Below, piece after piece: positions 10,528 to 64,000 of a stretch of 64,000 nt of DNA. The translations under genes and the position numbers were made by a program. The stretch is taken from the NCBI RefSeq assembly GCF_009765375.1, contig NZ_VTOK01000001.1, positions 186,001-250,000 on the forward strand. The letters run 5' to 3'. Within the stretch, counting starts at the first letter, position 1. The number at the start of each line of letters is the position of its first letter. The DNA comes from Alteribacillus sp. YIM 98480 (GTDB lineage: Bacteria > Bacillota > Bacilli > Bacillales > Marinococcaceae). A model generated the notes under the pieces. That model ran no database searches. It was not told the DNA's origin and saw only the letters and a program-made list of their open reading frames with translations.

Positions 10528-11278
10528 ATTGCACCCCGCCCAATACACCTTGTGTAGTCATGATGTCTTTTAGAAACGTTTGGCGTGTCTGATCCCCTTT
10601 ATTCAACTGCGTATAGATCTGTCCGTCTTTAATAAAGATAACACGGCTGCTGTAGCTTGCGGCAACAGGGTCATGCGTAACCATGACAATAGTTGCCAGG
10701 TGTTTTTCATTTAAATTGCTCATTTTATCTAATAAATCAGAAGCAGATTTAGAGTCAAGTGCACCTGTTGGCTCATCTGCAAAAATAATACTAGGGTTGT
10801 GGATGAAAGCTCTAGCTGCAGAGGTTCGTTGTTTCTGCCCGCCGGAGATTTCGATTGGATATTTATGTTGAACGTCTTCAATGCCAAGTTCTAAGGCTAT
10901 TTCCTGAAATTTTTTATTTGCTTCTTGTTTCGAGACTTTTGTTATTGATAATGGAAGCAATATATTCTCTTTAACCGTCAACGTATTCAATAAATTGTAT
11001 TCTTGAAAAATAAAGCCTAAATGGTGTTTTCTAAATGCGGCTAACTGCTTTTCTTTTTGACTAGTTAAATCTTTGCCTTCTATTTTAATAGTGCCGCGGC
11101 TCAAACGGTCAATAGAAGAAAGCACATTTAATAAAGTCGTCTTTCCGGAACCAGAGGCACCCATAATTGTAAGAAATTCGCCCTTTTCAATTCTGACATC
11201 AATGCCTTTTAACACCTCTTGCTTTGTAAATTTGTTTCCATAGCTTTTATAAATTTTATTCGCTTCTAAAATAGTCAT
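10517..11278 (-). CDS. bceA: BceA-type ABC transporter ATP-binding protein
   Basis: A 253-residue ATPase with Walker A GASGSGKT (residues 40-47), Q-loop [10 protein letters not shown], signature ISGGQKQR and Walker [13 protein letters not shown]. The start at 11278 is fixed by GGGGGA seven bases upstream; the longer frame to 11380 runs through the promoter. It pairs with the overlapping permease gene and is preceded by its own promoter and a BceR-type palindrome, so transport genes can be induced separately from the two-component genes. Confidence 0.95.
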
Positions 11279-11306
11279 TTGTATTCCCCCATACATTGTT
11301 ATCTTT

Positions 11307-11335
11307 ATTATATAAACTTCAAATACGTCTGTCCT
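11307..11335 (-). promoter_or_regulatory. Promoter of bceAB
   Basis: On the minus strand a consensus -10 box TATAAT (plus coordinates 11307-11312) is preceded by AGGACA (11330-11335) with a 17-base spacer. The poor first half of the -35 box is typical of activator-dependent promoters. The BceR-type palindrome lies 29 bases further upstream. Confidence 0.65.
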
Positions 11336-11364
11336 TTCAACCATCGAACAAAAAAGAAAAGCGA

Positions 11365-11380
11365 GTGACATTTTTGTCAC
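11365..11380 (-). promoter_or_regulatory. BceR-type operator, GTGACA-N4-TGTCAC
   Basis: A perfect inverted repeat GTGACA-TTTT-TGTCAC overlaps the last codons and stop of the histidine kinase gene. It fits the known BceR-like pattern of inverted repeats with a four-base spacer upstream of bceAB-type promoters. Confidence 0.8.
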
Positions 11381-12384
11381 ACGCCTTGAATATCGACAAA
11401 TTCATTTGCTTTTGGAAAAGTAAGAGAAAAAGAGGTACCGCAGCCGAATTCCGATTGAACGTTAATATGAATATGCAGGGAAGATGCCACTTTTTTTGCT
11501 AAGTAGAGCCCCATTCCAGATGCAGTGTTGTCTTGATGTTGACTCGTTGAGGTAAAGCCTTTGTCAAAAATACGCTGCAGGTCGCGTGCCTCAATGCCGC
11601 GCCCGCTGTCAGCCACCGTGAAAATAGTTTGTCCGTTATGCTTGCTGCTTGATATGGAAATATCTGAACCTTTTTCACTATATTTTACGGCGTTTGTGAG
11701 AAACTGGCGAATGATAAAAGAGAGCCATTTTGAATCGCTAAGTACATTTATAACTGTCAAATCAATATTAAAACCAATACCTTTTTGCAGACACCATGAT
11801 CGCAGAGTGTTGATTTCACTATAAACGATAGAAGCGAGCTCGATTTTTTCCATATATAGATCATTCTCCATAAATGGCATGCGTTTTTGATGGAGCTGTT
11901 GATCGAGCAGCAAATGTACTCGCATCCATTCATGAGTCAGCTGCAATTTCAGGTGCCGGTCTTCCACGCGGTCAATAATTAATTGCATAGCCGTTAAAGG
12001 AGTTTTCACTTCATGAATCCACGCTAGCATTTCATCTTTTTCCTGTTCGAGTAATGTATGCTGAGTGGAAACTTCTGCTTTTAGTTCTTCTATCGGTTGG
12101 GAAATGCTTTGTTCTATCAGTTTCTCAAACGGGCGGTTTGGCTCGGGTAAAGTGGTGATGTCTGTATCCTTTTTACGCTCCGAAAGTTCTATGAAAAATT
12201 TCACCTCTTGATGGTAACGAATGATGATAAATATAGTGAAAATGATGGTTGATAGAAAAACGTAATACATGACAGCGGAATATGGAATCGATGAATCGAG
12301 ATAGGTGATAAACAGTGCAAGTACCTGTAAAAACATAAACATAAGGATCCAGCTGCGCCGCTCTCGTAAATATTTTCGAATCAT
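11377..12384 (-). CDS. bceS: BceS-type intramembrane-sensing histidine kinase
   Basis: A 335-residue kinase with two closely spaced N-terminal membrane helices (about residues 12-30 and 36-56) and almost no extracellular loop, so it senses through the BceAB transporter rather than directly. Phosphorylation site H124 lies in [13 protein letters not shown], the N box is [11 protein letters not shown], and G boxes are VADSGRGI and GMGLYLAKK. Its ATG overlaps the response-regulator stop as ATGA, with AAAAGGAAA upstream. It phosphorylates the cognate regulator on exposure to cell-wall-active peptides. Confidence 0.92.
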
Positions 12385-13070
12385 TGATTTTCCTTTTCTA
12401 ATGCGATATAACCCTGACCGATTTTGGTCTCGATCGTATTATTAAGTCCAATCTCAGACAATTTTTTCCTTAGACGATTCACATTGACCGTCAGCGTATT
12501 GTCACTGATAAATCGCTGATCATCCCATAGTCGAGTCATTAAATCCTCGCGACTGACAATTTGATTTTTATTCTCCATTAAAAGCTTTAAAATCCACATT
12601 TCGTTTTTTGTCAGCTCAACCGTTGCTTGTCCAATCGCCACTTGATTTCGTTCAAAATCAATCGTTGCTCCTCGCCAAGTTTTAAGGTCCGGAACTGCAG
12701 TGCTGTAGTTATATACCCGGCGCAGGATCGCCTGGATTTTTGCAATCAGCACATCAAAGTGAAAAGGTTTCTGAATATAATCATCGGCCCCAAGATTCAT
12801 GGACATCACCATATCTGTCGGGTGGTCACGGGATGACAAGAAAATAATCGGCACATTCGAATGTTCACGAATCATCCGGCACCAATGAAATCCATCAAAT
12901 TTCGGCAGCTGTATATCTATGATCACCAAATGAGGCTTTACAGATGTAAAAGTTTCCAATACTTTTTGATAGTCTGTTATCCCGGAGACGACATATTCCC
13001 ATTGAGAGAGACGGTTTTTCATTTCATTAAAAAGGGAAGCATCATCTTCTATAAGCAGTATGTTGAACAA
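12381..13070 (-). CDS. bceR: BceR-type response regulator (OmpR family)
   Basis: A 229-residue regulator: receiver domain with acidic pocket E8-D9-D10 and phosphorylation site D52 in IIDIQLPKFDG, then an OmpR winged helix ending in NTLTVNVNRLRKKL. The chosen start is TTG at 13070 (MFNILLIEDD), which aligns with the known BceR N-terminus and lies six bases after GAGGTG. The GTG at 13079 sits on the ribosome site itself. It should activate bceAB through the palindrome at 11365-11380. Confidence 0.92.
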   Translation of the reverse strand: MFNILLIEDDASLFNEMKNRLSQWEYVVSGITDYQKVLETFTSVKPHLVIIDIQLPKFDGFHWCRMIREHSNVPIIFLSSRDHPTDMVMSMNLGADDYIQKPFHFDVLIAKIQAILRRVYNYSTAVPDLKTWRGATIDFERNQVAIGQATVELTKNEMWILKLLMENKNQIVSREDLMTRLWDDQRFISDNTLTVNVNRLRKKLSEIGLNNTIETKIGQGYIALEKENQ

Positions 13071-13347
13071 CAGGATCACCTCTAGGAAAATTATAGCAAA
13101 TATCTATCTGCTGCTCTATTGCTAAAAAATAAAAAGCTATTATTCCCCTTTATTTCCAGAATATTCAACAATTCCTTCGATGTACATGAAAAAAGAGAGT
13201 CTCTCTGTATCTCGAAAGAATGGTGACCACACAAAATCCAAGAGTACAGAAGAAACTCCCTATGTTTACTTATTTTCCGTTTGAGCTGCGAGAATACACG
13301 ATTTTAGAACCTCAAATTGCTTGAATGGCGGATCCTGTTGCATATTG

Positions 13348-14412
13348 TCACTTTGAGGAATGATTTTTTGCAAGTTTTTCTCGATCAGCGGACGTTGGAG
13401 GCTCCTCTAACCAGCCTTGTTTAATCATTAAATTTGTTCCTGTATTAACATATTTTCCGATTCCAACGGAAAGTGAAGCAAAAGCAAGGTGTACATCATG
13501 CCTTAATATTTTACTCATTGCTGATCCATAATTTTGTATCCCAACTCCATTAGATAATACAGTATGATAAAGCAATAGCTTATCAGAAAAAGGTGAAATA
13601 GTAGAATCGGTAACATGGGAGTCCACTATCTTAGGAGAAGGCAGCATATCTTTCAAAAGTATCTGTCCTAATTCAGTTATTTGTTTCTCTGCCAATTGAG
13701 ATCCTTCTTGAAAATAACTTCTTAACTCTTCTGAAGATGCTATTTGGCTAAATGCTATCATTAATGCTTTGCCTAGTGTATTGGTATTGAGGTTAAGTTG
13801 TAATTGCTTGATTTCTAAAGCCGTTAATGGCCTGGTTTTTCCTGCTATAACAGATATAAAAGATTCTTTTTCTATAAAGTCGACTTTGTTAGGATAAGGA
13901 ATTTCAGGATGAGAAATGTCGATCCCTTTTGAAAGCAGCAAGTTGATGCCCTGTTTATAGGTAGATATTGTATCATTTAAGCCCGTTTCAAAATATTCGA
14001 TAATATCGTTCCTAAAAGAAGTAGAGAGAGCACTGCCGTATGTTTCAAAGCCTGCTCTTGCCATTTCAGTAATATAAAAAACCATAAAAACGTCGCTAAA
14101 TAAACGAGGTGCTTCTTTTCGAATATCTTGTTCCCCGAATCCTACGGGAATAGGGATTTTTTCTTTTGTAAAAATTTCCTCTATGGCTCTTAAATGCTTT
14201 TTAGAAATATTTAAAGCAAACTCAATAAATTTTTTAATTTCATCGTCTTGAACTACTTGAAGATGATGTTCATATACGCAGCAAAACAAAGAGTCACCTA
14301 AATAATTTGAAAATAAATCACCTAGTTCCGAGGAGACTAATTTTTTATTTAGATAATGTTCTTTCATTGTTCTTTTTATATCTGTTTCTTCCTGTGATTC
14401 ATTCTTCTCCAC
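13348..14412 (-). CDS. DUF3231 family protein (tandem CotF-like helical bundles)
   Basis: A 354-residue helical protein built of two similar halves (about residues 15-165 and 190-345). Each half has an EMARAGFETYGSALSTSFRNDI-like pattern, recurring near the end as NYGSAMSKILRHDV. This is characteristic of the DUF3231 family, common in spore-forming Bacillales and distantly related to spore coat protein CotF and ferritin-like bundles. The GTG start at 14412 follows AGGAGG by eight bases. Function is unknown; a stress or spore role is inferred from the family. The gene is monocistronic. Confidence 0.85.
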   Translation of the reverse strand: MEKNESQEETDIKRTMKEHYLNKKLVSSELGDLFSNYLGDSLFCCVYEHHLQVVQDDEIKKFIEFALNISKKHLRAIEEIFTKEKIPIPVGFGEQDIRKEAPRLFSDVFMVFYITEMARAGFETYGSALSTSFRNDIIEYFETGLNDTISTYKQGINLLLSKGIDISHPEIPYPNKVDFIEKESFISVIAGKTRPLTALEIKQLQLNLNTNTLGKALMIAFSQIASSEELRSYFQEGSQLAEKQITELGQILLKDMLPSPKIVDSHVTDSTISPFSDKLLLYHTVLSNGVGIQNYGSAMSKILRHDVHLAFASLSVGIGKYVNTGTNLMIKQGWLEEPPTSADREKLAKNHSSK

Positions 14413-14828
14413 TTTTCACGCCTCCTTCTATGTAATCATGATGTATTATTTGTAAAAAAAGAAAAAATATAAGGACTTGATTACATAAATCGAACATCCT
14501 ATATGAGCTGAATTCTCAGAGGGTGCATTTCAAAAGTAGATACGCTTTTCAATTTTTACGTAATTCTTCTATGCCTTTAAACGCCATAGACTTTGATGGT
14601 TAAACGGACGAGTGAGGGTGTGGTTATTTTCGTTCAGAGACTCCCGGATAAGGAAGTTCTTATGAAAAAACTGGGGTCATATTGATGGATTGTCTGAAAT
14701 GAAATCGATCTCTTTTAAAAATATAATAGTGCTCAGTTCATGGTAACGAGCAGTTTATTATTTGTGAAATGCAGTATTAAGAAAATAATATTGTAATACC
14801 TTTGACTATAGAAAATGAGGCAATCTTT
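14413..14828. other. Gene-free stretch, possible decayed 5' part of the GGDEF gene
   Basis: No intact gene. At 14680-14790 the plus strand can be read as short hydrophobic pieces (for example SFKNIIVLSS) broken by stops. These may be the lost N-terminal membrane part of the broken diguanylate cyclase gene that follows. No promoter or RNA element was recognised. Confidence 0.35.
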
Positions 14829-15512
14829 ATGGATATAAGTGGGAGAATATTTGCAATCGGGGTGGTTGATTTGCTAATATTCTTCGTTATTTTTATTATC
14901 ATCAATATTTGGCATTGCCTTTTAAATGGAATCTCTTTGTGTGACCAGCTATATTTCTACTGATTGCCTGGTGGCGCGAAAAACAATATGACAAAGCAAA
15001 ATATTATTCTGGAAAAGGTCCATTAACCAATACGTATAATCGACGAACAGTGGAAAGTATCTTCCAAGCATTTTCTTTGCATTCGAAGAAAAGAAACGAA
15101 AAACTAGACATTTTTATCATTGACCTCAACCATTCCAAGAAAATTAGTGATGCATATGGGCATAATACAGGGGATGAATTGTTACAGGCTATATCCTTTA
15201 TCTTAAGAAAGATGATTTTATTGCAAGGTGGGGAGGCGATGAATATTTAATCCTCATTCCAAATTCAAGCGAAGTATTTTCGAAGATATTTTATTAAGAT
15301 CTCCGTAAAGAACTAGAACATAATGAGGTCGTGAACATTTCCTATTTTGGGGTTTCTATTGGTTGTGCAATCTATCCTGATAATGGAGACCGTTTTCAGA
15401 TGGCTGATAAGGAGAGGTATAAGTTGAAAGAGAAAAACCTGGGCACTTATGAACATAAAACGTTAATATTATTTTTTATAGGGAAGTATTATGGAAGGCA
15501 TTTATTTTTGTA
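14829..15512 (+). pseudogene. Membrane-anchored diguanylate cyclase (GGDEF), multiply disrupted
   Basis: The pieces of a GGDEF protein are spread over several frames. A hydrophobic N-terminal segment starts at 14829, then a frame change near 14960 leads to LTNTYNRRTVESIF and IIDLNHSKKISDAYGHNTGDELL. A further shift near 15210-15230 leads to ARWGGDEYLILIPNS, with the GGDE signature at 15232-15243, and a stop at 15294-15296 before the VSIGCAIYPDNGD tail. At least two frameshifts and one nonsense codon make it a clear pseudogene. The intact protein would have made cyclic di-GMP. Its active-site motif survives, so decay is probably recent. Confidence 0.85.
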
Positions 15513-15671
15513 ATTATTATTAGTTTTATTGCGTTGCCTTTTATTAGACTAACAGCATAAATGTCTGAGGGTAATGAAAACAAATGAAGTGAACTGTTTT
15601 GTTGGGTACTTGCGCAATGATTTATACAAATAAATGAGGTTGAGAAAGTCTTTTGAAAATAAAATATAAAA

Positions 15672-15697
15672 CAAAAAGCCCCCGATTCAGGGGCTCT
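15672..15697 (-). terminator. Terminator of the nucleosidase lipoprotein gene
   Basis: On the minus strand GAGCCCC, a six-base loop and GGGGGCTTTTTGTTTT form a compact hairpin with T-run right after the stop at 15704. Confidence 0.85.
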
Positions 15698-15703
15698 TTG
15701 GTA

Positions 15704-16531
15704 TTACTTGTTTTCAAGTATTTCTTCAATAACGTGACTGGAGTTTTGTGCCGCTTCTTCGACGAAGTTTTCTTGAATTTCTGCTGCTTCTTCTCCGGCG
15801 TCGTCGGAAGCAGAGCGAATGACAACGTATGGGACGTCATTCAAGTAGGCAATTTGGCCAACTGCAGCGCCTTCCATTTCTACTACGTAAGCGTCAAACG
15901 TTTCGTTAATCCATTGCGATTTTTCTTCGCTGTCAATAAATTGGTCACCGGTAGCCACTGTTTCAGTGAACACATCCACATAGTCAGGCAATCCTTCTGT
16001 TCCTTCTTCTGCAAGAGAAATCAATTCATCATCAGCTTCAAAGTACAGTACGTCCATATAGGGAATTTGGCCAGGTTCATAATCTTTAGCTGTTTCATCC
16101 ATATCATGGTGAACTGTTTGGGTAGAAATTACAATGTCGCCAAGACCTACATCAGGATGTATACTTCCTGCTACACCTGAATTGATCAATGCATCAACAT
16201 TAAATTCACTAAGAAGAATTTGAGCTGCAATCGAGGCATTGACTTTCCCGATGCCTGATTGAACGAGCACAATATTCTCATCTTTTAGAGTTCCTTCATA
16301 AAACGTCATACCAGCGATGTCTTTTTCTTCTTCTACCTCCATATTAGAACGTAAAATATCGATTTCTACTTCCATCGGACCAATGATACCCACTGTTTCT
16401 TCTTCATTTTGATTATCTGTTTCCTCGGTTTCTCCACCTTCAGCTTGTCCTGAATCTTGACCGCAGCCTGCTAAAACAAGAGTAAGAACCAATAATAGAA
16501 CGGTGTTTTTCCAAGATGATAAAAAGTTCAC
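15704..16531 (-). CDS. Lipoprotein 5'-methylthioadenosine/S-adenosylhomocysteine nucleosidase-like protein
   Basis: A 275-residue protein starts with a lipoprotein signal peptide (lipobox LAGC, lipidated Cys23) and an acidic linker (about 24-48), then a complete MTAN/Pfs-type nucleosidase domain. Visible active-site elements are PMEVEIDIL (general acid Glu), NSGVAGSI, VEMEGAAVGQ (ribose-binding Glu) and RSASDDAGEE (catalytic Asp). MTAN enzymes normally work in the cytoplasm; here the domain would be anchored outside the cell, suggesting nucleoside salvage from the medium. The GTG start has GGGGGT eight bases upstream. The next gene along the strand, adenine deaminase, could use the adenine released after uptake. 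Confidence 0.85.
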   Translation of the reverse strand: MNFLSSWKNTVLLLVLTLVLAGCGQDSGQAEGGETEETDNQNEEETVGIIGPMEVEIDILRSNMEVEEEKDIAGMTFYEGTLKDENIVLVQSGIGKVNASIAAQILLSEFNVDALINSGVAGSIHPDVGLGDIVISTQTVHHDMDETAKDYEPGQIPYMDVLYFEADDELISLAEEGTEGLPDYVDVFTETVATGDQFIDSEEKSQWINETFDAYVVEMEGAAVGQIAYLNDVPYVVIRSASDDAGEEAAEIQENFVEEAAQNSSHVIEEILENK

Positions 16532-49796: not shown

Positions 49797-50916
49797 TTAT
49801 TGTAAAGCAGCTTTAAGATTAATGATTCCATTACCATAGTAAGAGGAATCACCTAATCGATCTGCTGTTGAATTTAGCTTTTGGCGTATTTCTTCATTAG
49901 ATAAGGCTGGATTATTATCAAGCATGAGTGCTGCTGAACCGGCAACGTGAGGAGCCGCCATAGACGTACCATCAAAGGCTTGATAGTTATTATCAGGTGT
50001 CGTACTTAATATATTGACTCCTGGAGCCATCACCTCCAACTCCTCTCCTACACTAGAAAACGATGCACGAGTGTCATTTTCATTTACAGCACCAACGGCC
50101 AAAACCGAATCATACTTCGCTGGATAGCTAATGGTATTTAAAAAGAGTAAAGAGCCAGAGTTTCCAGCTGCCGCAATGACAGTAATGCCAGCTTCATTTG
50201 CATTGCTGCTTGCCTCTTTGAGTGTTTGAGAACCTATCGTGCCGCCAAGACTCATATTAACAATATCTATATTATTATCAATAGACCACTCCAATCCTTG
50301 TTCAATACTGCTGAAATCTCCACTTCCATCGGAACCGAGCACTTTTACGGCATATATTTCAGCTCCATGAGACATTCCGAGCACCCCGCTGTTGTTATCC
50401 ACGGCAGCTACTGTTCCGGCAACATGGGTACCATGGCCGTTTCCATCTGTTTGTGGATCAGGCTCACTCTCAACGAAACTAGCACCTCCTGCTACTTGTA
50501 AATCTTCGTGTTTGCCGTCTATTCCACTATCAAGCACAGCAACTTTACATGCTTCCCGTGTTTCCATCACCATGCACATCAGAAGCTTTAAGTCTATTTA
50601 ATCCCCACGGTACCTCTTGTTCCAATGCTTCCATTTCTTCATTTTCTTCAATAAATTTAACATTAGGGTTATTTTCAAAGGCATTTGCAGCTTGTTTAGG
50701 AATAATTATTTCTAAAACATTCATATGTTTAAATTCATGTTCGATTTCTCCGTTCGCTTGCTTTACTTCTTGAACTTCTTTTTCTCCAATAGCTGTGTTA
50801 AAACCGATTAAGTATTCTTCTTTATCTACTTGTTCCGCTTGAACTTGTCCGGTAAAGATAAATAGTCCGATCACTAAAGCAGTACCAGGTTTTTTACCCA
50901 AATTTTCTTTTATCAT
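49797..50916 (-). pseudogene. Subtilisin-like alkaline serine protease, frameshifted
   Basis: Two overlapping frames together encode a complete secreted subtilase. The first (start 50916, AAGGAGG site) carries a signal peptide and the I9 propeptide (EYLIGFNTAIGEKEVQEV, KFIEENEEMEALEQ) up to [20 protein letters not shown]. The second carries the full catalytic triad: Asp in VAVLDSGID, His in [11 protein letters not shown], Ser in [15 protein letters not shown]. The frame breaks near 50541-50553, at the junction of a conserved NTG-x-VKVAVLD motif, and a stop follows at once. All else is intact, so this is either a very recent mutation or a sequencing error. Confidence 0.85.
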
Positions 50917-54853: not shown

Positions 54854-54861
54854 CCAATTAT

Positions 54862-54901
54862 AAAAATAGCAGGTTGCCCATAAAGGAACCTGCTATTTTT
54901 T
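54862..54901. terminator. Bidirectional terminator
   Basis: AAAAATAGCAGGTT and AACCTGCTATTTTTT form a near-perfect stem with A and T runs on both sides, between the convergent chemoreceptor and DJ-1/PfpI genes. Confidence 0.88.
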
Positions 54902-54908
54902 CTAATAT

Positions 54909-55562
54909 TTAATTTAACGCATTCACCACTTTTTCTGCAGTACTTCTGCTTGATTGTGGGTTTTGACCAGTAACAAGGTTCCCATCCGCAACGGAAAAAT
55001 CGGACCATTTGTCGCCGCGCTCAAAATTTGCTCCTTTTTCGCGCAGCTCGGTTTCAAGCATAAATGGCATATGCGTATCTAGCTGCATTTCCTTTTCTTC
55101 TTCATCTGTAAAGGCAGATACTCTCTTTCCTTTCACAAGCGGTGTGCCGTCAGCATATGCTGCGTTGACAAGCCCCGCCGGCCCATGACAAACAGCACTA
55201 ATGACTTTATTATTTTCTGCAAAGTGCTGCAATACGGTTTGCAGTGTTTGGTTATCTGGAAAATCGAACATCGTTCCATGTCCGCCAGGGAGGAAAATGG
55301 CATCAAAATCTTCTGTGTCATTTTCGCTCAACACGGCTGTATTTTTTAGTTCTTCTTCTGCTGTTTTCCATTCAGGGCGCTCTTCAATGCTGTTTGGGTC
55401 AAGCGGAACTTCTCCGCCTTCAATGCTTGTGACCTTTACGTCATAGCCATTGTCTTTAAAAACATTGTACGGAACAGCAAACTCCTCAAGCCAAAGCCCC
55501 GTTTTGTGGTCATCTGTAATTGTTGTATGATTGGTTACAACCATGAGAATGTGTTTTGACAA
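54909..55562 (-). CDS. DJ-1/PfpI-family protein (Hsp31-like class I glutamine amidotransferase fold)
   Basis: A 217-residue protein with the nucleophile Cys in VISAVCHGPAGL and the upstream Glu-containing WLEEFAVPYNVFKDNGYDV segment; FLPGGHGTMFDF is the family oxyanion region. Relatives are glyoxalase III or protein deglycases acting in carbonyl stress. The TTG start has GGGAGG eight bases upstream. It is monocistronic. Confidence 0.9.
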   Translation of the reverse strand: MSKHILMVVTNHTTITDDHKTGLWLEEFAVPYNVFKDNGYDVKVTSIEGGEVPLDPNSIEERPEWKTAEEELKNTAVLSENDTEDFDAIFLPGGHGTMFDFPDNQTLQTVLQHFAENNKVISAVCHGPAGLVNAAYADGTPLVKGKRVSAFTDEEEKEMQLDTHMPFMLETELREKGANFERGDKWSDFSVADGNLVTGQNPQSSRSTAEKVVNALN

Positions 55563-55770
55563 AATAAAAACCTCCCTTTATTAATACAATCTTATTGTAA
55601 ATTCTAGAAAATAAATTGTACATTATATTGCTTAGAAGAATAGGTGAAAATACATTGATATTTTCCACGTAATAGTATCAAACATCTGATTAATCTTTAT
55701 TCTTTAAAAAGAGAAAGTTAATTTACGGGTTAAAAATTTGTACAAAAAAGGATGAATTTTTAGAATATTA

Positions 55771-55799
55771 TTGACAATATATGATATATCATATATTTT
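55771..55799 (+). promoter_or_regulatory. Promoter with perfect 22-bp palindrome
   Basis: TTGACA at 55771-55776 is followed by a perfect palindrome at 55776-55797, centred on GATATATC (ATATATGAT on one side). It fills the spacer and reaches the -10 region (TATTTT, 55794-55799). This is the probable autoregulatory operator of the GntR-family gene that starts 30 bases downstream. Confidence 0.7.
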
Positions 55800-55828: not shown

Positions 55829-56491
55829 ATGACAGTAACTAAAAACATTTACACTACCAAGTCAGATTATGTACATCAATTTTTGAAACGTAAAATATTG
55901 GACGGTGAACTATCCATGGGTGAGGATATAAACATTAGCAAGGTTTCTAAAGAATTAAATGTTTCTATTATCCCTGTGCGAGAAGGTTTAAAAAGACTAG
56001 AAACGGAAGGTTTAGTTGAAGTAATTCCTCATAAAGGAGCACGTGTCAAAACTTTTAATTCAGAGAAAATCAGAGAAATATTTGATATTCGGGCAGTGTT
56101 AGAAGGGCTTGCAGCAAAAACCGCTATTTCTAATATGGATGCCGACAAAATTAAACAGTTAAAATCAATGACTGATAAAATGAAAGCGTATGCAATAGAA
56201 GGTAATGATAAGGAATTTGGTCAAGCGAACAAAGATTTTCACCGATACATTTATAAAAACTCCGTCTATCCAAGACTATATGATATGATTTTTAACCTTT
56301 GGGAAGGAAGTTGGACCCAGGCAGTTTTTGCATTTAGTCCTGAAAGAATGCTTGCATCAGTAGAAGAGCATTATGAAATTATTAAAGCAATGGAAGAAAA
56401 AGATGAAGAAAAAACAGAACATTTAGTTAAATTGCATAAGTTGAATACGGCTGAACTGTTTGTAGAGGTCTCGAAAAAAGAGGAAGGATAA
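55829..56491 (+). CDS. GntR-family regulator with FCD domain
   Basis: A 220-residue FadR/VanR-type regulator with winged helix NISKVSKELNVSIIPVREGLKRLE near residues 33-56 (given in part) and an FCD helical domain (IREIFDIRAVLEGLAA, FGQANKDFHRYIYKNS, VEEHYEIIKAM). AAAAGGAG precedes the ATG. It is the first gene of a run of same-strand catabolic genes and probably controls them, perhaps as a repressor released by an organic acid intermediate. Confidence 0.9.
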   Translation: MTVTKNIYTTKSDYVHQFLKRKILDGELSMGEDINISKVSKELNVSIIPVREGLKRLETEGLVEVIPHKGARVKTFNSEKIREIFDIRAVLEGLAAKTAISNMDADKIKQLKSMTDKMKAYAIEGNDKEFGQANKDFHRYIYKNSVYPRLYDMIFNLWEGSWTQAVFAFSPERMLASVEEHYEIIKAMEEKDEEKTEHLVKLHKLNTAELFVEVSKKEEG

Positions 56492-56555
56492 ATGTTATAT
56501 TGTCAACTTTTGTTGAAGCCATTGGAAGTTTTTAATAGAAGGAGGGTTAAACTTC

Positions 56556-57410
56556 GTGTCGGAATTTTTATATCATGTACCTAATAATTTAGACGATCTC
56601 TTTTCAACGATAAAAAAACATGGATCCTCAGCAGCATTACTTGCTGGTGGAACAGATCTACTTATCCATTTAAAAGTAGGAAAGATTGCTCCACAACATG
56701 TCATTGACATAAAACATGTTAAAGAATTGTATGAAAAAATAACTTTTTGTTCCAACGGAATGACAATTGGAGCGCTTACAACACTTATTAATATAACCAA
56801 ACATCCTGATGTACAGAAATTATATCCAGCTTTGTCAGAGTCAGCTCGAAAGGTGGGGTCAAAGCAAATTCGCAACAGAGGTACACTAGTTGGTAATATT
56901 TGCAATGCTTCCCCAGCAGCTGATACTGCTCCGGCACTACTTATATACAATGCAGAAGTAACCATTGTTGGGATGAACAGTCGCCGGACTATACCGTTTG
57001 AATCTTTTATTAAAGGACCGGGTAAAACGGACTTAAAAGAGGGAGAAATAGTCGAAAGTTTGTTTTTTCCCTTCCCGCCTGCTAACTCAACATCAAATTT
57101 TGTGAAATTGGCGCGCAGAGAAGGGGCCGACTTAACTATTGTGGGAACAGCAACGTTAGCTGCATCTAATTATGAAACGCGAATTGCACTCTGTGCCGTT
57201 GCTCCTATTCCTTTTAGAGCCTGCTCGGCAGAATACGTATTGAATCAAGGGGGGTATAATCAACAAAATATAGATAAAGCACTTGAGAAAGTTGTACATA
57301 ATGCAAATCCAATATCGGATTTACGTGCAACCAAGGAATATCGTCTTGCAATGGTTGAAGTAATAACTCGAAAGTCTTTAGAAAATTCACTCAAAATCCT
57401 TACAAACTGA
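56556..57410 (+). CDS. Molybdenum hydroxylase FAD-binding (medium) subunit
   Basis: A 284-residue CoxM/XdhB-type flavoprotein. AALLAGGTDLLIHLKVG and VGSKQIRNRGTLVGNICNASPAADTAP (given in part) are the two FAD-binding loops. It passes electrons from the [2Fe-2S] subunit to an acceptor. GAAGGAGGG lies about 11 bases before the GTG start. It is followed by the iron-sulfur and molybdopterin subunit genes in the order typical of the family. Confidence 0.93.
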   Translation: MSEFLYHVPNNLDDLFSTIKKHGSSAALLAGGTDLLIHLKVGKIAPQHVIDIKHVKELYEKITFCSNGMTIGALTTLINITKHPDVQKLYPALSESARKVGSKQIRNRGTLVGNICNASPAADTAPALLIYNAEVTIVGMNSRRTIPFESFIKGPGKTDLKEGEIVESLFFPFPPANSTSNFVKLARREGADLTIVGTATLAASNYETRIALCAVAPIPFRACSAEYVLNQGGYNQQNIDKALEKVVHNANPISDLRATKEYRLAMVEVITRKSLENSLKILTN

Positions 57411-57463
57411 TATACAATTCTATTATTTATGAATATGAAACAGAAATGAGGTGAGAACCAAGA

Positions 57464-57958
57464 ATGGAGAATGAATCTTTTGAACTTGAATTTATTTTAA
57501 ACGGTGAAAGCAAAAATATAAGAGTGAAACATTACTGGACCTTAGCTGAAGTTCTTCGGAGTCAGGAAGGATTAACTGGAACCAAACTTTGTTGTGAGGA
57601 GGGTGAATGTGGAGCTTGCACGGTAATTGTAGATGGAAAATCAGTAACATCGTGTATTGTGTTAGCCCCTGAAGTCCAAGGAAGCAATATTGTTACAATT
57701 GAAGGTCTGTCACAAGATGGAGAGATTGACCCGGTACAAGAAGCATTTATAGAAGAAGGTGCTGTACAATGTGGATACTGTATTCCGGGAATGGTTATGT
57801 CTGCCAAAAATTTACTTGATGAAAACGACTCCCCTGATGAAGAAGAAATAAAAGAAGCACTCGGTGGAAATATTTGCCGATGTGCCGGGTATTACAGAAT
57901 TATTTGTGCTGTTCAATCAGCAGCACAGAAATATAAAGAAAAAGTGAAAGTATTATAG
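57464..57958 (+). CDS. Molybdenum hydroxylase [2Fe-2S] (small) subunit
   Basis: A 164-residue CoxS/XdhC-type protein. The plant-type cluster is bound by Cys44, Cys49, Cys52 and Cys64 (CEEGECGAC); the second cluster by Cys103, Cys106, Cys138 and Cys140 (QCGYC and NICRCAG). All eight ligands are present. GAGGTGAG precedes the ATG. It connects the molybdenum centre to the flavin subunit. Confidence 0.96.
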   Translation: MENESFELEFILNGESKNIRVKHYWTLAEVLRSQEGLTGTKLCCEEGECGACTVIVDGKSVTSCIVLAPEVQGSNIVTIEGLSQDGEIDPVQEAFIEEGAVQCGYCIPGMVMSAKNLLDENDSPDEEEIKEALGGNICRCAGYYRIICAVQSAAQKYKEKVKVL

Positions 57959-57974
57959 AAATGAGGTGAAAAAC

Positions 57975-60254
57975 TTGAGTATTACGATTGCAGATAAAGA
58001 TACAGAGAACGATTTAAAAATAGTGGGGAAAAATGTTAAACGTTCAGATGCATTAAAAAAAGTAACTGGCACTTTAGATTATGTTATTGATCAGAAAATG
58101 CCAGGTATGCTACATGGAAAACTTTTACGTTCTGAGTATGCAAGAGCTGAAATTATTAAAATAGATACAACAGAGGCTAAAGCTATAAAAGGTGTTTATG
58201 ACGTATTGACAGGAGAAAATTTATCTCAACCTGTACCGCGTTTTGGTTCTATTAAAGAAGATCAGCCGTTGTTGGCTGACAAGGAAGTTAAATATCATGG
58301 GGAACCGATTGCTATAGTATTAGCAGTCGATGAAGAGACCGCTAAGAAGGCCTTGAAATATGTAAAAGTTAAGTATAAACAATTACCGTCTGTCTCAACA
58401 ATAGAAGAGGCATTAAAACCAAATGCGCCGATCGTTCATTCGAATGATCAGGATAACGAGAAAACAAATTCTAATATATGTGGCCATTGGGATTATAATT
58501 GGGGGGATGTTGATCTACAGAAAGAAAACAGTTCGTTCACTATCAATAATGAGTTTGAATTTCCTATGATTCACCATTTTCCAATTGAACCGTATTCTTG
58601 CATTTCATATCCTGTTGATGATGAATTAGTAATAAAAACCCCAATCCAACACCCTTTTATTTTGCGTCGGGTTGTGGCGCAAGCGTTGAATATGGAATTG
58701 TCAAAAGTAAGAGCCATTTCTAACACAATAGGTGGAGGATTTGGAGGGAAAGGCTATCCAAAAATTGAACCTTTAGCAGCCTATCTAGCAATGGAAACTG
58801 TAAGACCTGTAAAGATTACATTATCTTTAGATGAAGGTTTTTTTTCCGCACGACGCTCCTCTGCACAAGTCAATATATGCACGGGATTTAATAGTGAAGG
58901 ATTCATTAACTATCAAGATATTACAATAAAATACTTAATAGGAGCTTATGCTGATTCTGCTCCAAGAGTAGCAGGAAAATCTAGTTATCTTGCATGCGGT
59001 CCTTATCGAACACCAAATGCTAGAATAAATTGTGAAGCTGTTTATTCAAATACAGTGCCCAGTACTGCATTTAGAGGATTTGGGATGCCACAGTTAATTT
59101 GGGCTTTGGAATCTCAAATGAATGAAGCAAGTAAAATTGTAGGTCTTGACCCGGTCGACATTCGACTTAAAAATCTTCCTGAGAAAGGAGATGTGTTAAT
59201 ACCAGGGGATAATCCTGTAGATGGGGATTGGAAACAAGGGCTGCGCAAAGCTGCTGAATTAATAGGTTGGGGAAAAGATAATGAAAAAAACAAAGGCAAA
59301 GGGATAGCGATTGGGATAAAAAACCCCATTCCAGCATCTGTTTCTAAATCAATTGTTAGACTACACGCCGATGGAAGTGTCACGGTATCTTCAGGAACTT
59401 CTGAAATGGGACAAGGAGCAAAAACTGTTATGGGTCAAATCGCAGCTGAGGAATTAGGTGTACCTATGAATCGTGTATCTGTAAATCTTGGTGACACATC
59501 CGTAGCTCCTTTTGATACAGCTACAGCAGGAAGTCGCTCAACGGTAAGTATGGGTAGAGCAATTAAGAGTGCGTGTGATGATATAAAAAATCAAATAAAA
59601 GAAATAATACATGAACTCTATACATTGAAAACAAGCGAAGAAATGATAATATCTGACGGATACGTAAAAGTACACGAAAAAGTTATCTCTTATGCTGAGA
59701 TTCTTACTGAATATATGGGACCAAATTTAGGAGAGATTGTCGGACGAGGAGTGTTTAAAGGGACGAAGATTAATAATCATCCAATGGGAGGTTTGGCAGA
59801 TTTTTGGGAAATTGTATTTACAGCTTCTGAAGTAAAAGTAGAGAAAGAAACTGGAAAGTTAAATATCAATAAACTGCTCAATGTAAGCGATGTGGGTTGT
59901 GTAATTAATCCATTACAAGCAGAAGCCCAAGAAGAAGGTGCAGCAATAATGGGGTTAGGTCATACATTGATGGAGCAATTGGTATATGATAACAATTCTT
60001 CTAAACTAATGAATGGAAGTGCATTAGATTATCGAGTGCCAACTTCAATGGATATTCCAGATAATTTTGAAAGCGATTTCATAGAAAACCACGATGGACC
60101 TGGTCCGTTTGGAGCAAAAGGTCTTGGCGAAAGTGGTATTATTGCTGTTGCTCCTGCTGTTGCTGGTGCTGTGTCTGAGGCAGTAGGTATAAAAATGAAA
60201 GATTTGCCAATCTCAGCAGAAAAAGTTTGGGGATTAATAAATAATAAAAAATAG
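57975..60254 (+). CDS. Molybdenum hydroxylase molybdopterin-binding (large) subunit
   Basis: A 759-residue subunit of the xanthine dehydrogenase/CO-dehydrogenase family. NTIGGGFGGKGYPKIEP binds the cofactor. Residues from 365 read AFRGFGMPQ, the xanthine-dehydrogenase-like active-site loop rather than the CO-dehydrogenase AYxCSFR loop. Catalytic Glu719 lies in GAKGLGESGI. It should hydroxylate an N-heterocycle or oxidise an aldehyde; the substrate is unknown. The TTG start at 57975 lies six bases after GAGGTG; the GTG at 57966 sits on that site. No cofactor-sulfuration or chaperone gene is in view. Confidence 0.93.
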   Translation: MSITIADKDTENDLKIVGKNVKRSDALKKVTGTLDYVIDQKMPGMLHGKLLRSEYARAEIIKIDTTEAKAIKGVYDVLTGENLSQPVPRFGSIKEDQPLLADKEVKYHGEPIAIVLAVDEETAKKALKYVKVKYKQLPSVSTIEEALKPNAPIVHSNDQDNEKTNSNICGHWDYNWGDVDLQKENSSFTINNEFEFPMIHHFPIEPYSCISYPVDDELVIKTPIQHPFILRRVVAQALNMELSKVRAISNTIGGGFGGKGYPKIEPLAAYLAMETVRPVKITLSLDEGFFSARRSSAQVNICTGFNSEGFINYQDITIKYLIGAYADSAPRVAGKSSYLACGPYRTPNARINCEAVYSNTVPSTAFRGFGMPQLIWALESQMNEASKIVGLDPVDIRLKNLPEKGDVLIPGDNPVDGDWKQGLRKAAELIGWGKDNEKNKGKGIAIGIKNPIPASVSKSIVRLHADGSVTVSSGTSEMGQGAKTVMGQIAAEELGVPMNRVSVNLGDTSVAPFDTATAGSRSTVSMGRAIKSACDDIKNQIKEIIHELYTLKTSEEMIISDGYVKVHEKVISYAEILTEYMGPNLGEIVGRGVFKGTKINNHPMGGLADFWEIVFTASEVKVEKETGKLNINKLLNVSDVGCVINPLQAEAQEEGAAIMGLGHTLMEQLVYDNNSSKLMNGSALDYRVPTSMDIPDNFESDFIENHDGPGPFGAKGLGESGIIAVAPAVAGAVSEAVGIKMKDLPISAEKVWGLINNKK

Positions 60255-60280
60255 ATAAATACTTATCGTTTAACTCTTTT

Positions 60281-60298
60281 ACCTTGAATGTACAAGGT
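60281..60298 (+). repeat. Small hairpin after the large-subunit gene
   Basis: ACCTTG and CAAGGT around a six-base loop, followed by an A-run rather than a T-run. It is at most a weak pause or mRNA 3' end. Confidence 0.3.
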
Positions 60299-60442
60299 TG
60301 AAAAAAAGGTTTTTGATCTGTTGTTTATTAGATTCTCGTATCATCTTCCAATTTATGCCGCGATTATCACGGTGAATAATTTTCTACTTATACCCAATTG
60401 GGAGTTAGAAGGTAAACGTAAATTTTAAGGGAGGATGAAATT

Positions 60443-61777
60443 ATGGACAAAAGAGAAATTTCCAATGAACAAACTGCTTCAGATCAAGCTGTTGCAGAAC
60501 AAGCTGCTACTGAACAGGCAGAAATAGAACCAAGTGACTTACAAGAAGCCAATAATGCAACACCGCTCAGTAAATTGATGAAATACTCAAAATTAATGGG
60601 ACCTGCTTGGGTAGCTATTGCATTAAATATAGGAGGCGCAACAATAGCTGCTGCTGTTGTTGTAGGTTCATCAACAGGTTTTAAATTTTTATGGGCTCTG
60701 GTTCCAGAAGTGTTTACTATTTGGATCGCGTGTATTTTATGTACAAAGTTAACGTTAGCTACAGGTGAAGGAACGATAGGAGCTGTAAGAAAATTTTTAG
60801 GTGAAGGAGCAGCATTGTTTACCGGTATTTGTGTTTTTATGGTAAATGCGATTTTCCATGCTGTTAACTTTTTATTAGCTGGTATGGCATTAGAAACATT
60901 GTTTGGAGTAGACCAAAGATTAGGTTCTCTCGTTGGATTAGTTTTTATACTACTTATCGTGTTTAATCCGGCCAAAGGAGACCGATATATAAAGATCATA
61001 GAAACAACACTCCGAATTTCCATTTGGCTTCTATTTCTTACCTTTTTACTCGTACTATTTATGATTGATATTCCATGGGGAGAATTATTTAAAGGGTTAT
61101 TTGTACCAACTTTACCTAATTCTAGTGAAGAAATGGCCACATTTGCAGGCCTTCTAGGAGCAGCAATTGCGGTAAACGTACCAGTAATGGCCGCTTATGG
61201 AATAAAGGAAAGAAAATGGGGTAAAAGGCGCAGCGGCTTAAGTATTTTTGAAATAACATTTACTCATATTATGTTACTTCTTGTACAGTTAGTTGTTGTT
61301 ATAGCTACAGCCTCAACACTATTTCAAGAAGGAACAGTAGTAACAGATGGGATCGTTGCAGCCCAAGCACTCGAACCATTTGCAGGAGGATTTGCAGTCT
61401 ATTTATTTGGGATTGGGTTGCTAGCTTCGGTATTTACAACATTGGTTTCACAAGTTCTTCTATCTGGTTATTTAATCACAGATACAATGAAATGGAAGGT
61501 TGATACAAAGTCTACAAAATTTAAACTGAGTCAATTAGCAGTAGTAATATTAGGTGTAACAGCTCCACTTTTTGGTTGGAATGCATTCCAGGGGGTTATC
61601 TATGCAAGTGCCGTTAATCTTACATTTATGCCGGTGGGAATAATTCTTTGGTGGTTAATAGGCAATAAAACAAACGTTATGAATGAATTAAAACTAAGTA
61701 AACCAATGAATATTAGTGTGGCTTTAGGTCTTATCCTAGTTTTGATTGCAACAATTAGATTTTGGATTAATCTGTAG
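60443..61777 (+). CDS. NRAMP-fold transporter lacking the metal-site motifs
   Basis: A 444-residue membrane protein with an acidic, Gln/Ala-rich 45-residue cytoplasmic start and about 11 helices. The overall pattern (MGPAWVAIALNIGG, GSSTGFKFLWAL) resembles NRAMP carriers. However, the metal-binding DPGN of helix 1 reads NIGG here, and the MPH of helix 6 is replaced (AVNVPVMAAYG). The protein is therefore unlikely to move Mn or Fe and may carry an organic substrate, as suspected for YcsG-like members. GGGAGG precedes the ATG. It lies between the hydroxylase and lyase genes. Confidence 0.8.
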   Translation: MDKREISNEQTASDQAVAEQAATEQAEIEPSDLQEANNATPLSKLMKYSKLMGPAWVAIALNIGGATIAAAVVVGSSTGFKFLWALVPEVFTIWIACILCTKLTLATGEGTIGAVRKFLGEGAALFTGICVFMVNAIFHAVNFLLAGMALETLFGVDQRLGSLVGLVFILLIVFNPAKGDRYIKIIETTLRISIWLLFLTFLLVLFMIDIPWGELFKGLFVPTLPNSSEEMATFAGLLGAAIAVNVPVMAAYGIKERKWGKRRSGLSIFEITFTHIMLLLVQLVVVIATASTLFQEGTVVTDGIVAAQALEPFAGGFAVYLFGIGLLASVFTTLVSQVLLSGYLITDTMKWKVDTKSTKFKLSQLAVVILGVTAPLFGWNAFQGVIYASAVNLTFMPVGIILWWLIGNKTNVMNELKLSKPMNISVALGLILVLIATIRFWINL

Positions 61778-61873
61778 TAATAGAATTTATCATTCATCGT
61801 CTTCCTCTATTAGAGCCATTGAAATGATAAAAACATAAACAAAAACCATACAAAAAAGAGGTGTTTATTAAAT

Positions 61874-62821
61874 ATGAAGCATTCTAGTTTAACAGGAGTA
61901 ATTCCTGCTAATTTGATCGCCTTTAATGAACAATTAGAACTCGATGAGAAAAACTATCGACTCCATATTAGGCATATTGTAAACACAAAAGGTGTCGCAG
62001 GTATCACTACTAATGGGCACGCTGCGGAAGTAGCTTCATTAACATTTGATGAACAAAGAAGGAGTTTAAATATTACTTTAGATGAAGTCTCCGGAAAAGT
62101 CCCTGTTATTTGTGGAATCTATGAAAATGGAACTCAAAAAGCAGCCGACATGGCTAAAATGGCTGAAAGAGAAGGTGCAGATGCCCTTCTAGTGTTTCCG
62201 TCAGAAGTTTTAAATTTTGGGCATCAATTACGACCTGACATGGCATATTATCACTACGCTACGGTAGCTAAAGCAACGAATTTGCCTATTGTTGCTTTTG
62301 TGTACCCTACCACTTCAGGTTTGCATATTCCAACGGACCATTTAGTGAAAATTTGTAAAGAAATTGATAATGTAGTAGCTGTTAAAGAGTGGTCTAATGA
62401 TATATTTGTTTATGAGCAAAACTACCGTGAACTAAAGAAATTAGACAAGCACATATCCATATTAACGAGCTTTAGTAAATCATTACTTGCTTCACTTTGT
62501 ATAGGTGCTGATGGTATTCTTTCAGGACACGGCAGTCTTATAGCGGAAATTCAAGTGCACCTTTATGAGGCAGTTAAATCAAATGATTTAGAAAAAGCCC
62601 GTATAATAGCTGAAAAACTTTATCCTTTAGTTCAAGTGTTTTACAAAGAGCCTTTTTTGGATATGCATAACAGAATGAAAGAGGCAAATGTTTTATTAGG
62701 TAGAATGGAAAAAGCCTATGTGAGACCTCCTTTACAAAAAATCTCGGAGGAAGAGCGTAATATAATTGATGAAGTTATTATGAACGCTAGATTACCACAA
62801 TACAAGGAAATCAAAAAATAA
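61874..62821 (+). CDS. Dihydrodipicolinate synthase-family lyase/dehydratase
   Basis: A 315-residue DapA-superfamily TIM barrel. The Schiff-base Lys lies in NVVAVKEWSND and the active-site Tyr in AFVYPTTSG. The usual GTTGE phosphate/carboxylate loop is replaced by TTNGHAAE, so it is not DapA itself. Relatives cleave or dehydrate 2-keto-3-deoxy acids, N-acylneuraminate or hydroxylated pyruvate adducts. It would act after ring or sugar-acid oxidation in this operon. AAAGAGGTG precedes the ATG. Confidence 0.88.
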   Translation: MKHSSLTGVIPANLIAFNEQLELDEKNYRLHIRHIVNTKGVAGITTNGHAAEVASLTFDEQRRSLNITLDEVSGKVPVICGIYENGTQKAADMAKMAEREGADALLVFPSEVLNFGHQLRPDMAYYHYATVAKATNLPIVAFVYPTTSGLHIPTDHLVKICKEIDNVVAVKEWSNDIFVYEQNYRELKKLDKHISILTSFSKSLLASLCIGADGILSGHGSLIAEIQVHLYEAVKSNDLEKARIIAEKLYPLVQVFYKEPFLDMHNRMKEANVLLGRMEKAYVRPPLQKISEEERNIIDEVIMNARLPQYKEIKK

Positions 62822-62872
62822 TTTTTCGAATATTTTAATATCATTACAAATAAGCAATATGGAGGGTTCACA

Positions 62873-63799
62873 ATGAAATTATCGACAGTGCTTATCAATA
62901 ACGAATCAAGATTAGTAGGATTTCTTAATGAAACTCATGTAATTGATTTATTTGAAGCTCAAAAAGAGCTTAATAATAAAGAAATCCCTGAAAATGTTTG
63001 GATGAACATGCAATCATTTATAGAAGCCGGAGAGCCAGCCATTTTAGCTTGTCAACAAATGTTGTCAGACTTTACAGACAGTTTGTCACATAGTTTTATT
63101 TACCCCTTCGAGGATCTCAAAGTTCTTCCTCCCATCCCGAGACCATTGAAAAACATTATGTGTGTAGGGCGAAACTATAAAGAACATGTTGGTGAAAGTA
63201 AACAGCTAAGTGGAAAGTCACAACCAATACCAGAGAAACCTATCTATTTTACAAAATCTTTTACTAGTTTAGTGGCTCATGAGGATTTTATCGAGTTTAA
63301 TCGTAACGTCACAGAAAAAGTTGATTATGAGGGAGAGCTAGCAGTCATTATTGGAAGTAAAGGTAAAAATATTTCTAAAAATAAAGCAATGGACTATGTA
63401 TTTGGTTATTCAATTATGAATGATGTATCCGCTCGTGATCTACAGTTTGGACATGTCCAATATTTTAAAGGCAAAGCTTTAGATACCTTTGCTCCAATAG
63501 GTCCATGTATTGTCCATAAATCTTCTCTTCCAGATTACACAAAATTTAAATTACAAACAACTGTAAATGGTGAACTGCGACAATCAGCTTCGTTAGAACA
63601 ACTTATTTTCGATATCCCTACGATTATTTCGACTCTTTCTTCTGGAATGACCTTGCATCCAGGTGACATTATTGCAACTGGTACGCCTTCTGGGGTAGGT
63701 GGTGGATTTGACCCACAACGTTTTCTTAATGATGGTGACATAGTAGAAATTACGGTAGACCCGATTGGTACATTAAGAAATAGTGTGCGTGAATTATAA
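62873..63799 (+). CDS. Fumarylacetoacetate hydrolase-family protein
   Basis: A 308-residue FAH-family enzyme with NIMCVGRNYKEHVGE, the metal ligands in VDYEGELAVIIG, and MNDVSARDLQ and GTPSGVGGGF loops. Members hydrolyse beta-diketones or decarboxylate or isomerise 2-oxo-diacids. AUG with GGAGG upstream, 51 bases after the DapA-family gene. Together they suggest breakdown of a 2-oxo acid intermediate. Confidence 0.9.
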   Translation: MKLSTVLINNESRLVGFLNETHVIDLFEAQKELNNKEIPENVWMNMQSFIEAGEPAILACQQMLSDFTDSLSHSFIYPFEDLKVLPPIPRPLKNIMCVGRNYKEHVGESKQLSGKSQPIPEKPIYFTKSFTSLVAHEDFIEFNRNVTEKVDYEGELAVIIGSKGKNISKNKAMDYVFGYSIMNDVSARDLQFGHVQYFKGKALDTFAPIGPCIVHKSSLPDYTKFKLQTTVNGELRQSASLEQLIFDIPTIISTLSSGMTLHPGDIIATGTPSGVGGGFDPQRFLNDGDIVEITVDPIGTLRNSVREL

Positions 63800-63827
63800 G
63801 CTATATTCTATGAAAGGACGGAGAAAT

Positions 63828-64000
63828 ATGCAATTTATTGATTTAAGTGTTCCACTTGAACATGAACCTATAACAGAAAAAAGACCTTCCCGTATTGAAA
63901 GATTTAATCATGATAAAGAGGGGCTAGACTTTTTAACAAAAGCCTTTGGATGTGAACCGTCTGACTTAGTTTTATCCGGTGGACTGGGAAATGCGATTGA
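63828..64000 (+). CDS. Cyclase-family metal-dependent hydrolase, 5' part
   Basis: The first 57 codons of a gene cut by the window edge. MQFIDLSVPLEHEPITE matches the start of cyclase-family (kynurenine formamidase-like) hydrolases, which cleave amides or lactones with a metal site. GGACGGAG precedes the ATG, 28 bases after the FAH-family gene. The catalytic HxGTHxDAPxH motif would lie beyond the edge. Confidence 0.75.
   Translation, partial: MQFIDLSVPLEHEPITEKRPSRIERFNHDKEGLDFLTKAFGCEPSDLVLSGGLGNAI

Follow-up and report, generated by a model that had tools for sequence, protein, structure and literature searches.

A GntR-controlled, probably acquired operon of Alteribacillus sp. YIM 98480 with a proposed role in degrading a small cyclic acid

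We propose that the genome of Alteribacillus sp. YIM 98480 contains a probably acquired operon under GntR control for breaking down a small acid with a ring structure, for which a heteroaromatic carboxylate with N or O in the ring is the most likely candidate. We assign this reading about even chances. The window analyzed here is a stretch of 64,000 nucleotides (genome G000, contig C1, 186001-250000), and positions are given in window numbering. The putative operon (Table 1) extends from 55829 to 64589 and comprises eight genes in one direction, encoding a regulator, a three-subunit molybdenum hydroxylase of the XDH family, an NRAMP-fold carrier, a DapA-family lyase, an FAH-family enzyme and a cyclase-family hydrolase, the gene for the last of which is cut by the window end. 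The proposal builds on what the sequence offers, namely the gene set and its spacing, a candidate promoter-operator, the protein families, a partly conserved core and the accessory status of the block. The gene list, order and direction given in the original prediction were all recovered from the open reading frames (ORFs) and Pfam, and when the sequence was followed past position 64000, a check suggested there, the cyclase gene was completed at 64589 and malonate genes that are not part of the operon came next. Domain calls are by Pfam gathering scores and subfamily names by NCBIfam curated cut-offs; none of nine proteins (the eight operon proteins and the next regulator) attains such a cut-off, and therefore no standard name fits any of them.

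Table 1. Features of the putative operon, with the basis of each assignment.
Feature	Position	Strand	Basis
Sigma-70-type promoter of the operon	55771..55799	+	TTGACA, 17 nt, TATTTT; best + strand match, 10/12
18-nt perfect palindrome inside the promoter, probable GntR operator	55778..55795	n/a	covers the spacer
GntR/FCD-family regulator, probable autoregulator	55829..56491	+	GntR and FCD pass Pfam gathering scores
FAD (flavin adenine dinucleotide) subunit, XDH-family hydroxylase	56556..57410	+	FAD_binding_5/CO_deh_flav_C (Pfam)
2Fe-2S subunit, XDH-family hydroxylase	57464..57958	+	Fer2/Fer2_2 (Pfam)
Molybdopterin (Mo) subunit, non-purine subfamily	57966..60254	+	Ald_Xan_dh_C and MoCoBD_1/2 (Pfam), alignment, tree
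NRAMP-fold carrier lacking typical metal-site residues; probable organic-substrate uptake	60443..61777	+	Nramp (Pfam), alignment
DapA-family lyase with Schiff-base lysine	61874..62821	+	DHDPS (Pfam), alignments
FAH-family enzyme, nearest solved relative 8sky	62873..63799	+	FAA_hydrolase (Pfam)
Cyclase-family (PF04199) metal-dependent hydrolase, probable ring-opening enzyme	63828..64000, on to 64589 in genome	+	Cyclase (Pfam)

The eight genes probably form a single transcription unit. They are separated by gaps of 64, 53, 7, 188, 96, 51 and 28 bp, and a Shine-Dalgarno-like stretch is seen by eye ahead of seven of the eight starts, the exception being the Mo gene, where it is indistinct. Since the promoter scan as a whole gave fewer matches than expected by chance (22 vs a shuffle mean of 30.9), the argument for the promoter rests on its position and on the palindrome that it contains, which is unique in the window at up to two mismatches and did not occur in 100 shuffles. 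A long hairpin 3' of the cyclase gene (−27.8 kcal/mol, z −4.83) is likely the terminator.

The hydroxylase has the full architecture of its family, with FAD, 2Fe-2S and molybdenum cofactor domains encoded together. The catalytic glutamate of XDH-family hydroxylases sits in a GxGE motif, which reads GLGE in the window protein and is kept in all 28 rows of a Mo-subunit alignment (27 different sequences), made from a set of 32 ORFs of at least 600 residues after exclusion of four that are not Mo subunits and that were also left out of the tree. In the Mo subunit, the AFRGFGMPQ loop claimed in the original prediction occupies residues 368-376. The enzyme shares with the PucD-type purine hydroxylases the XDH-family architecture with separate subunits, but a purine enzyme of that type was rejected because its score is below the cut-off of the pucD model (417 vs 783.65), it lacks the PucD motifs and it lies elsewhere in the tree. 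Ten of the aligned subunits were scanned against that model, and the five that passed have the motifs GGKD-EL, MHGGGLG and EFRGFGGNQ in common, in place of which the window protein has GGKG-YPKIEPL, a shortened loop and AFRGFGMPQ, respectively. In the tree, it pairs with a Brevibacillus protein (100/100) and then with two Variovorax plasmid proteins (98/94), apart from the PucD rows, although the placement is tentative because the program warns of long branches there. The Variovorax plasmid operons contain genes for XDH subunits, an FAD monooxygenase and an isochorismatase-family protein, with no cyclase gene seen, and such sets are known from pyridine degradation. By analogy, the grouping weakly favors a heterocycle as the substrate.

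A second XDH cluster is present in the same genome (L080, G000:C32:216000-233201, at 4285-16391), together with genes for CoxG, UbiD, RraA, XdhC, a MobA-like transferase, a TctC receptor, an IclR regulator and a distant cyclase-family protein. It resembles the operon in having XDH subunits beside a cyclase-family gene but differs in that this cyclase is only distantly related (32% over 198 residues) and in its IclR regulator, TctC receptor, CoxG, UbiD and RraA. Cofactor maturation for the hydroxylase of the operon may be provided by this cluster.

The terminal hydrolase is a clear member of the cyclase family (129.3 vs 23.1 bits for PF04199), and its HTSTHMDAPWH segment fits the metal-binding motif of the family, HxxTHxDxPxH. 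Among solved structures, it is related to four isatin hydrolase sequences and to the unnamed cyclase-family protein 8f9x, all at E 2.5e-8 or worse, and a relative at E 1e-40 is found in 15 of the 398 genomes of the phylum sample, including its own. We examined by tblastn 14 other cyclase loci in the Bacillota, using queries from loci outside the 14, along with 20 control regions placed at round coordinates on the same contigs of nine of the 14 genomes. A gene for a C-C bond enzyme lies near the cyclase in 9/14 loci and in 0/20 controls (Fisher one-sided 3.8e-5), and because the controls are all 17 kb in length and thus longer than some of the cyclase stretches (9-17 kb, five of the 14 being shorter than 14 kb owing to contig ends or to the interval chosen), the unequal lengths count against the association found. 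The enzyme is of the BKACE family in five loci, HMGL-like in three and UbiD in one (none of these in the other five), and its gene adjoins that of the cyclase in all nine except L056, where one gene lies between them. Among plasmids, 201 records matched the cyclase and the surroundings of nine were inspected with an incomplete gene table: an FAH gene adjoins the cyclase in three and is the fifth gene downstream in one, a BKACE gene adjoins it in one and is one gene further in another, and neither is seen in the remaining three. Hence, cyclases of the window type appear often to accompany C-C bond enzymes, and the bond cut here could be C-N, C-O or C-C. A cyclase-family hydrolase beside BKACE, HMGL-like, FAH or UbiD is a pattern that could be useful for annotating other unexplained clusters.

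The three proteins encoded between the hydroxylase and the cyclase would account for uptake and for the later steps. In NRAMP transporters, the metal site is formed by the DPGN motif of helix 1 and the MPH motif of helix 6. The window protein lacks these metal-transporter residues, with GGAT opposite DPGN and AVN opposite MPH in the phmmer alignment with 10ky, and likewise no aspartate at the metal-site position when compared with 7qia. A precedent is provided by PxpT, an NRAMP-family protein that is reported to be essential when cyclic 5-oxoproline is the growth substrate (PMC13274462). We therefore regard an organic acid as the likely cargo of the NRAMP-fold carrier, with a supply of manganese for the cyclase as a fair alternative.

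Class I lyases of the DapA family use a Schiff-base lysine and a catalytic tyrosine. The lysine is present in the DapA-family protein and in 7/7 aligned rows, but phenylalanine takes the place of the tyrosine of 3si9 and 1o5k, and the protein has GHAAE for GTTGE. Four relatives encoded on plasmids have GHA(A/S/G)E and HNRMK in common; one of them is on the Delftia plasmid pLME1, beside chlorocatechol-type genes, and no pathway emerged from the neighbors of the four. The FAH-family protein is closest to 8sky (282.7 bits), which we take to be YisK of B. subtilis, and aligns with it in the lid histidine and glutamate, the functional residues of the FAHD/YisK group. FAHD proteins including YisK are described as mainly oxaloacetate tautomerases with minor decarboxylase activity (PMC10825186). 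A second FAH protein (43% over 311 alignment columns) is encoded in another cluster of the same genome (L081:1749-8890), where it is accompanied by a gene for an enolase-superfamily protein and, as judged by eye, by genes for an IclR-type regulator, an alcohol-dehydrogenase-like protein and a TRAP-type carrier.

The front part of the operon is conserved elsewhere. In the genome_contigs collection, where a pattern scan reaches only close relatives, a related cluster was found in one other species, Brevibacillus centrosporus (locus L031), where the regulator (67% identity), the FAD (58%), 2Fe-2S (70%) and Mo (68%) subunits and a cyclase (49%) are encoded together and where the operator palindrome recurs at the same place 5' of gntR with two mismatches (none in 100 shuffles at up to three). 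The cyclase gene is placed there between the 2Fe-2S and Mo genes, and an HMGL-like synthase (isopropylmalate/homocitrate-synthase-like), an MFS carrier, an enoyl-CoA hydratase (CoA, coenzyme A) and XdhC replace the NRAMP, DapA and FAH proteins, which have no match (E 1e-5) over the 22 kb surrounding the core there. The conservation of the neighborhood, put forward in the original prediction as a check, thus extends to the regulator, the operator, the hydroxylase and a cyclase and stops short of the carrier, lyase and FAH-type enzyme. In our view, the two clusters share a front end (regulator, operator and hydroxylase) that would act on one substrate or on close ones and that would be joined to exchangeable back ends. 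Close relatives are rare in the genomes searched. A Mo relative at E 1e-170 is present in one of the 398 genomes of the phylum sample (its own), at E 1e-150 in two of the 398 of the class sample, the second being B. centrosporus, and in one of the 39 genomes of the family of the latter; the DapA protein has a relative at E 1e-60 in one genome of 398 (its own). Weaker XDH relatives are frequent (18 of 29 family genomes at E 1e-60, own included). When the Mo, cyclase, DapA and NRAMP proteins were searched against plasmids, none had a relative at 60% identity or above, and no common gene order was apparent around three plasmid Mo relatives and the four DapA relatives, one of which is without annotation.

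The operon is accessory within its genus, since G002, a genome of the same genus, carries an empty site. Both flanks are matched in G002, the left (54855-55579) at 94% and the right (64826-73290) at 93%, and they lie 173 bp apart there compared with 9,246 bp here, so that the additional block consists of the operon and little more. In a third genome (G003), the right flank was found with no operon match beside it, the left flank being on a separate contig. As neither G002 nor G003 has an XDH-family match at E 1e-60, the operon is present in one of the three genomes of the genus. The G+C content of the block is 35.7% and that of the flanks 38.9% and 40.2%. The operon was probably acquired horizontally, and it is the narrow distribution across the genomes searched that favors gain here over loss in the other two.

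From the families encoded we infer every reaction of the proposed pathway as well as its substrate. The compound would be imported by the NRAMP-fold carrier (step 1), and the XDH-family hydroxylase would place an oxo or hydroxy group beside the ring heteroatom to give a lactam, a lactone or the tautomer of a cyclic 1,3-dicarbonyl (step 2), a ring that the cyclase-family hydrolase would then open hydrolytically (step 3). The resulting enol or 2-oxo acid would be tautomerized, decarboxylated or hydrolyzed by the YisK/FAHD-type enzyme (step 4), and the product would be cleaved by the DapA-family Schiff-base lyase to yield pyruvate together with an aldehyde or a small acid (step 5). The route outlined in the original prediction, import followed by molybdenum-dependent hydroxylation, ring opening and cleavage of 2-oxo acids, agrees with the families, the probable single operon, the non-purine hydroxylase and the link of the cyclase relatives to C-C bond enzymes, and it is the sugar acid included there among the possible substrates that has lost ground. 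If the pathway is correct, it would represent a compact ring-degradation operon from a species of Bacillota, in which an XDH-family hydroxylase has a defined partner for ring opening and another NRAMP-fold protein probably carries an organic acid.

Several observations weigh against this proposal. No gene of the operon is tied to any substrate. The pairing of hydroxylase and cyclase is rare, as there are no XDH genes (nor FAH genes) in any of the 14 Bacillota cyclase loci within the 9-17 kb stretches; among the nine plasmid contexts, XDH genes are near the cyclase in one (L035). The later steps are not conserved, given that the carrier, lyase and FAH-type enzyme are unmatched around the B. centrosporus core. 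The cyclase itself may have joined the hydroxylase on two occasions, since its identity to the B. centrosporus protein is lower than that of the front-end proteins (49% vs 58-70%), its gene has another position and the two are not sisters in the cyclase tree, where the window protein is nearer to that of locus L059 (6/23 inner branches are well supported). The phenylalanine in place of the tyrosine of solved DapA relatives makes ordinary aldolase action uncertain. Transport of an organic acid is likely but not certain because, although PxpT is needed on 5-oxoproline, its counterpart YcsG, the NRAMP member of the 5-oxoproline operon of B. subtilis, was reported to import manganese (PMC10448178).

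Each of the protein families involved is already known and uncharacterized catabolic operons are common, but this gene set is undescribed in the literature reached: our searches turned up no published account of it among the papers listed, as the original prediction had anticipated, and they brought up a paper on phloroglucinol degradation (PMC10470551). The furoate system hmfABCDE of Cupriavidus basilensis HMF14 is similar by description, in that molybdenum-dependent hydroxylation of a derivative of a small heteroaromatic acid is followed by ring opening to a 2-oxo acid (PMC6678421). The hmf route proceeds via CoA thioesters, using a CoA synthetase and a putative thioesterase, and its description assigns no gene to lactone hydrolysis, whereas the synthetase and thioesterase are absent from the eight genes considered here and a hydrolase is encoded (PMC6678421). 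A more specific form of our proposal, which we regard as improbable in its details, would be a CoA-independent route from an acid of the furan- or pyrrole-2-carboxylate type to a 2-oxo dicarboxylate, with the Mo enzyme acting on the free acid, the cyclase as a dedicated lactone or lactam hydrolase, a YisK/FAHD-type enol-to-keto tautomerase and an NRAMP-fold importer of organic acids. With such a substrate, we speculate that hydroxylase and cyclase alone would yield the enol of a 2-oxo dicarboxylate, for which a tautomerase of the FAHD type would be well suited as the third enzyme.

The genomic company of the cyclase family allows for a different chemistry, the degradation of a carbocyclic compound or enone via a cyclic 1,3-dione, in which the hydroxylase would oxygenate a carbon ring, the cyclase would make a retro-Claisen C-C cut and an FAH-type C-C hydrolysis would follow. 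We consider this unlikely. The carbons that XDH-family hydroxylases usually attack are those next to a heteroatom of the ring. In favor of the alternative, the five Bacillota cyclases that have a BKACE gene nearby share 43-50% identity with the window protein. At locus L060 (7959-9689), a cyclase gene stands beside a BKACE gene whose product passes the cut-off of the 3,5-dioxohexanoate:acetyl-CoA family (433.1 vs 430), which suggests that L060 may be a phloroglucinol-type cluster. There is also a precedent in dihydrophloroglucinol cyclohydrolase, a cyclase-family retro-Claisen enzyme that opens a cyclic 1,3-dione and is encoded near a BKACE-family enzyme (PMC10470551). The phloroglucinol pathway is similar to the one proposed here in that a ring-opening hydrolase of the cyclase family is followed by a C-C cleaving enzyme (PMC10470551). 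It differs, however, in that the reductase of the SDR (short-chain dehydrogenase/reductase) type, the dehydrogenase and the BKACE-family enzyme are all absent from the eight genes by Pfam, and a Mo hydroxylase would be the first step here. Moreover, the L060 protein belongs to a 15-row clade (98/99) that does not include the window cyclase, which is placed among rows that include the four HMGL-linked ones. Genes for an HMGL-like protein (isopropylmalate/homocitrate-synthase-like) and for a cyclase-family protein recur as a pair in the Bacillota (L059, L061, L065 and L031), with two genes between them at L031.

Rather doubtful is a route for sugar acids or aldehydes, in which the Mo enzyme would be an aldehyde (for example, glyceraldehyde) dehydrogenase, the DapA protein a 2-keto-3-deoxy-acid aldolase or dehydratase, the FAH protein a 2,4-diketo-3-deoxy-acid hydrolase and the cyclase a lactonase. 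The FAD and 2Fe-2S subunits do match the models for glyceraldehyde dehydrogenase (200.5 and 187.6 bits) and the FAH protein that for 2,4-didehydro-3-deoxy-L-rhamnonate hydrolase (163.7 bits), but the respective cut-offs (350, 290 and 500) are far higher, and the same holds for the Mo subunit (370.6 vs 790). An SDR gene just 5' of the B. centrosporus gntR has the glucose 1-dehydrogenase subfamily as its best model, slightly short of the cut-off (197.4 vs 215). No domain of a sugar dehydrogenase or sugar-acid dehydratase is found by Pfam in the eight window genes, nor one of a sugar-acid dehydratase in a scan of eight B. centrosporus proteins, and these absences and low scores are what make the sugar-acid substrate of the original prediction the less favored option.

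Past the operon are MadLM-type genes on the opposite strand, a second GntR gene (by Pfam) and a malonate-decarboxylase operon (named by eye), an arrangement (L006:10828-19137) that is matched in both G002 and G003; an MdcA relative at E 1e-60 is present in 10 of 29 family genomes, including its own. The malonate-decarboxylase genes were rejected as members of the pathway because they belong to the right flank common to G002, which has them at the same place without the operon, and proximity is the sole argument for including them. Further downstream, a guanidine-I riboswitch (L007:2691-2812) precedes a urea-carboxylase-like region in which a large protein of the carboxylase type, one of the amidase type and two smaller ones are recognized by eye, probably a guanidine degradation operon. 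A link of the operon to urea was rejected, as it is this riboswitch that heads the carboxylase region. Purine or pyrimidine use, by a xanthine dehydrogenase or by uracil/thymine dehydrogenase and barbiturase to give malonate and urea for these neighboring genes, is very unlikely despite the XDH family of the enzyme, the best NCBIfam match of its Mo subunit to XdhA (514.9 vs a cut-off of 780) and the adjacent malonate-decarboxylase operon, for the PucD motifs are absent, and the conversion of uracil to malonate and urea was dropped because the malonate genes stand alone in G002 and the guanidine-I riboswitch heads the carboxylase genes. A search of the genome for barbiturase (PF09663) gave no match, which carries little weight since control genomes likewise gave none. 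Elsewhere in the window, on the minus strand at 49797-50916, a subtilisin-like protease is seemingly split across two overlapping frames, as judged by eye.

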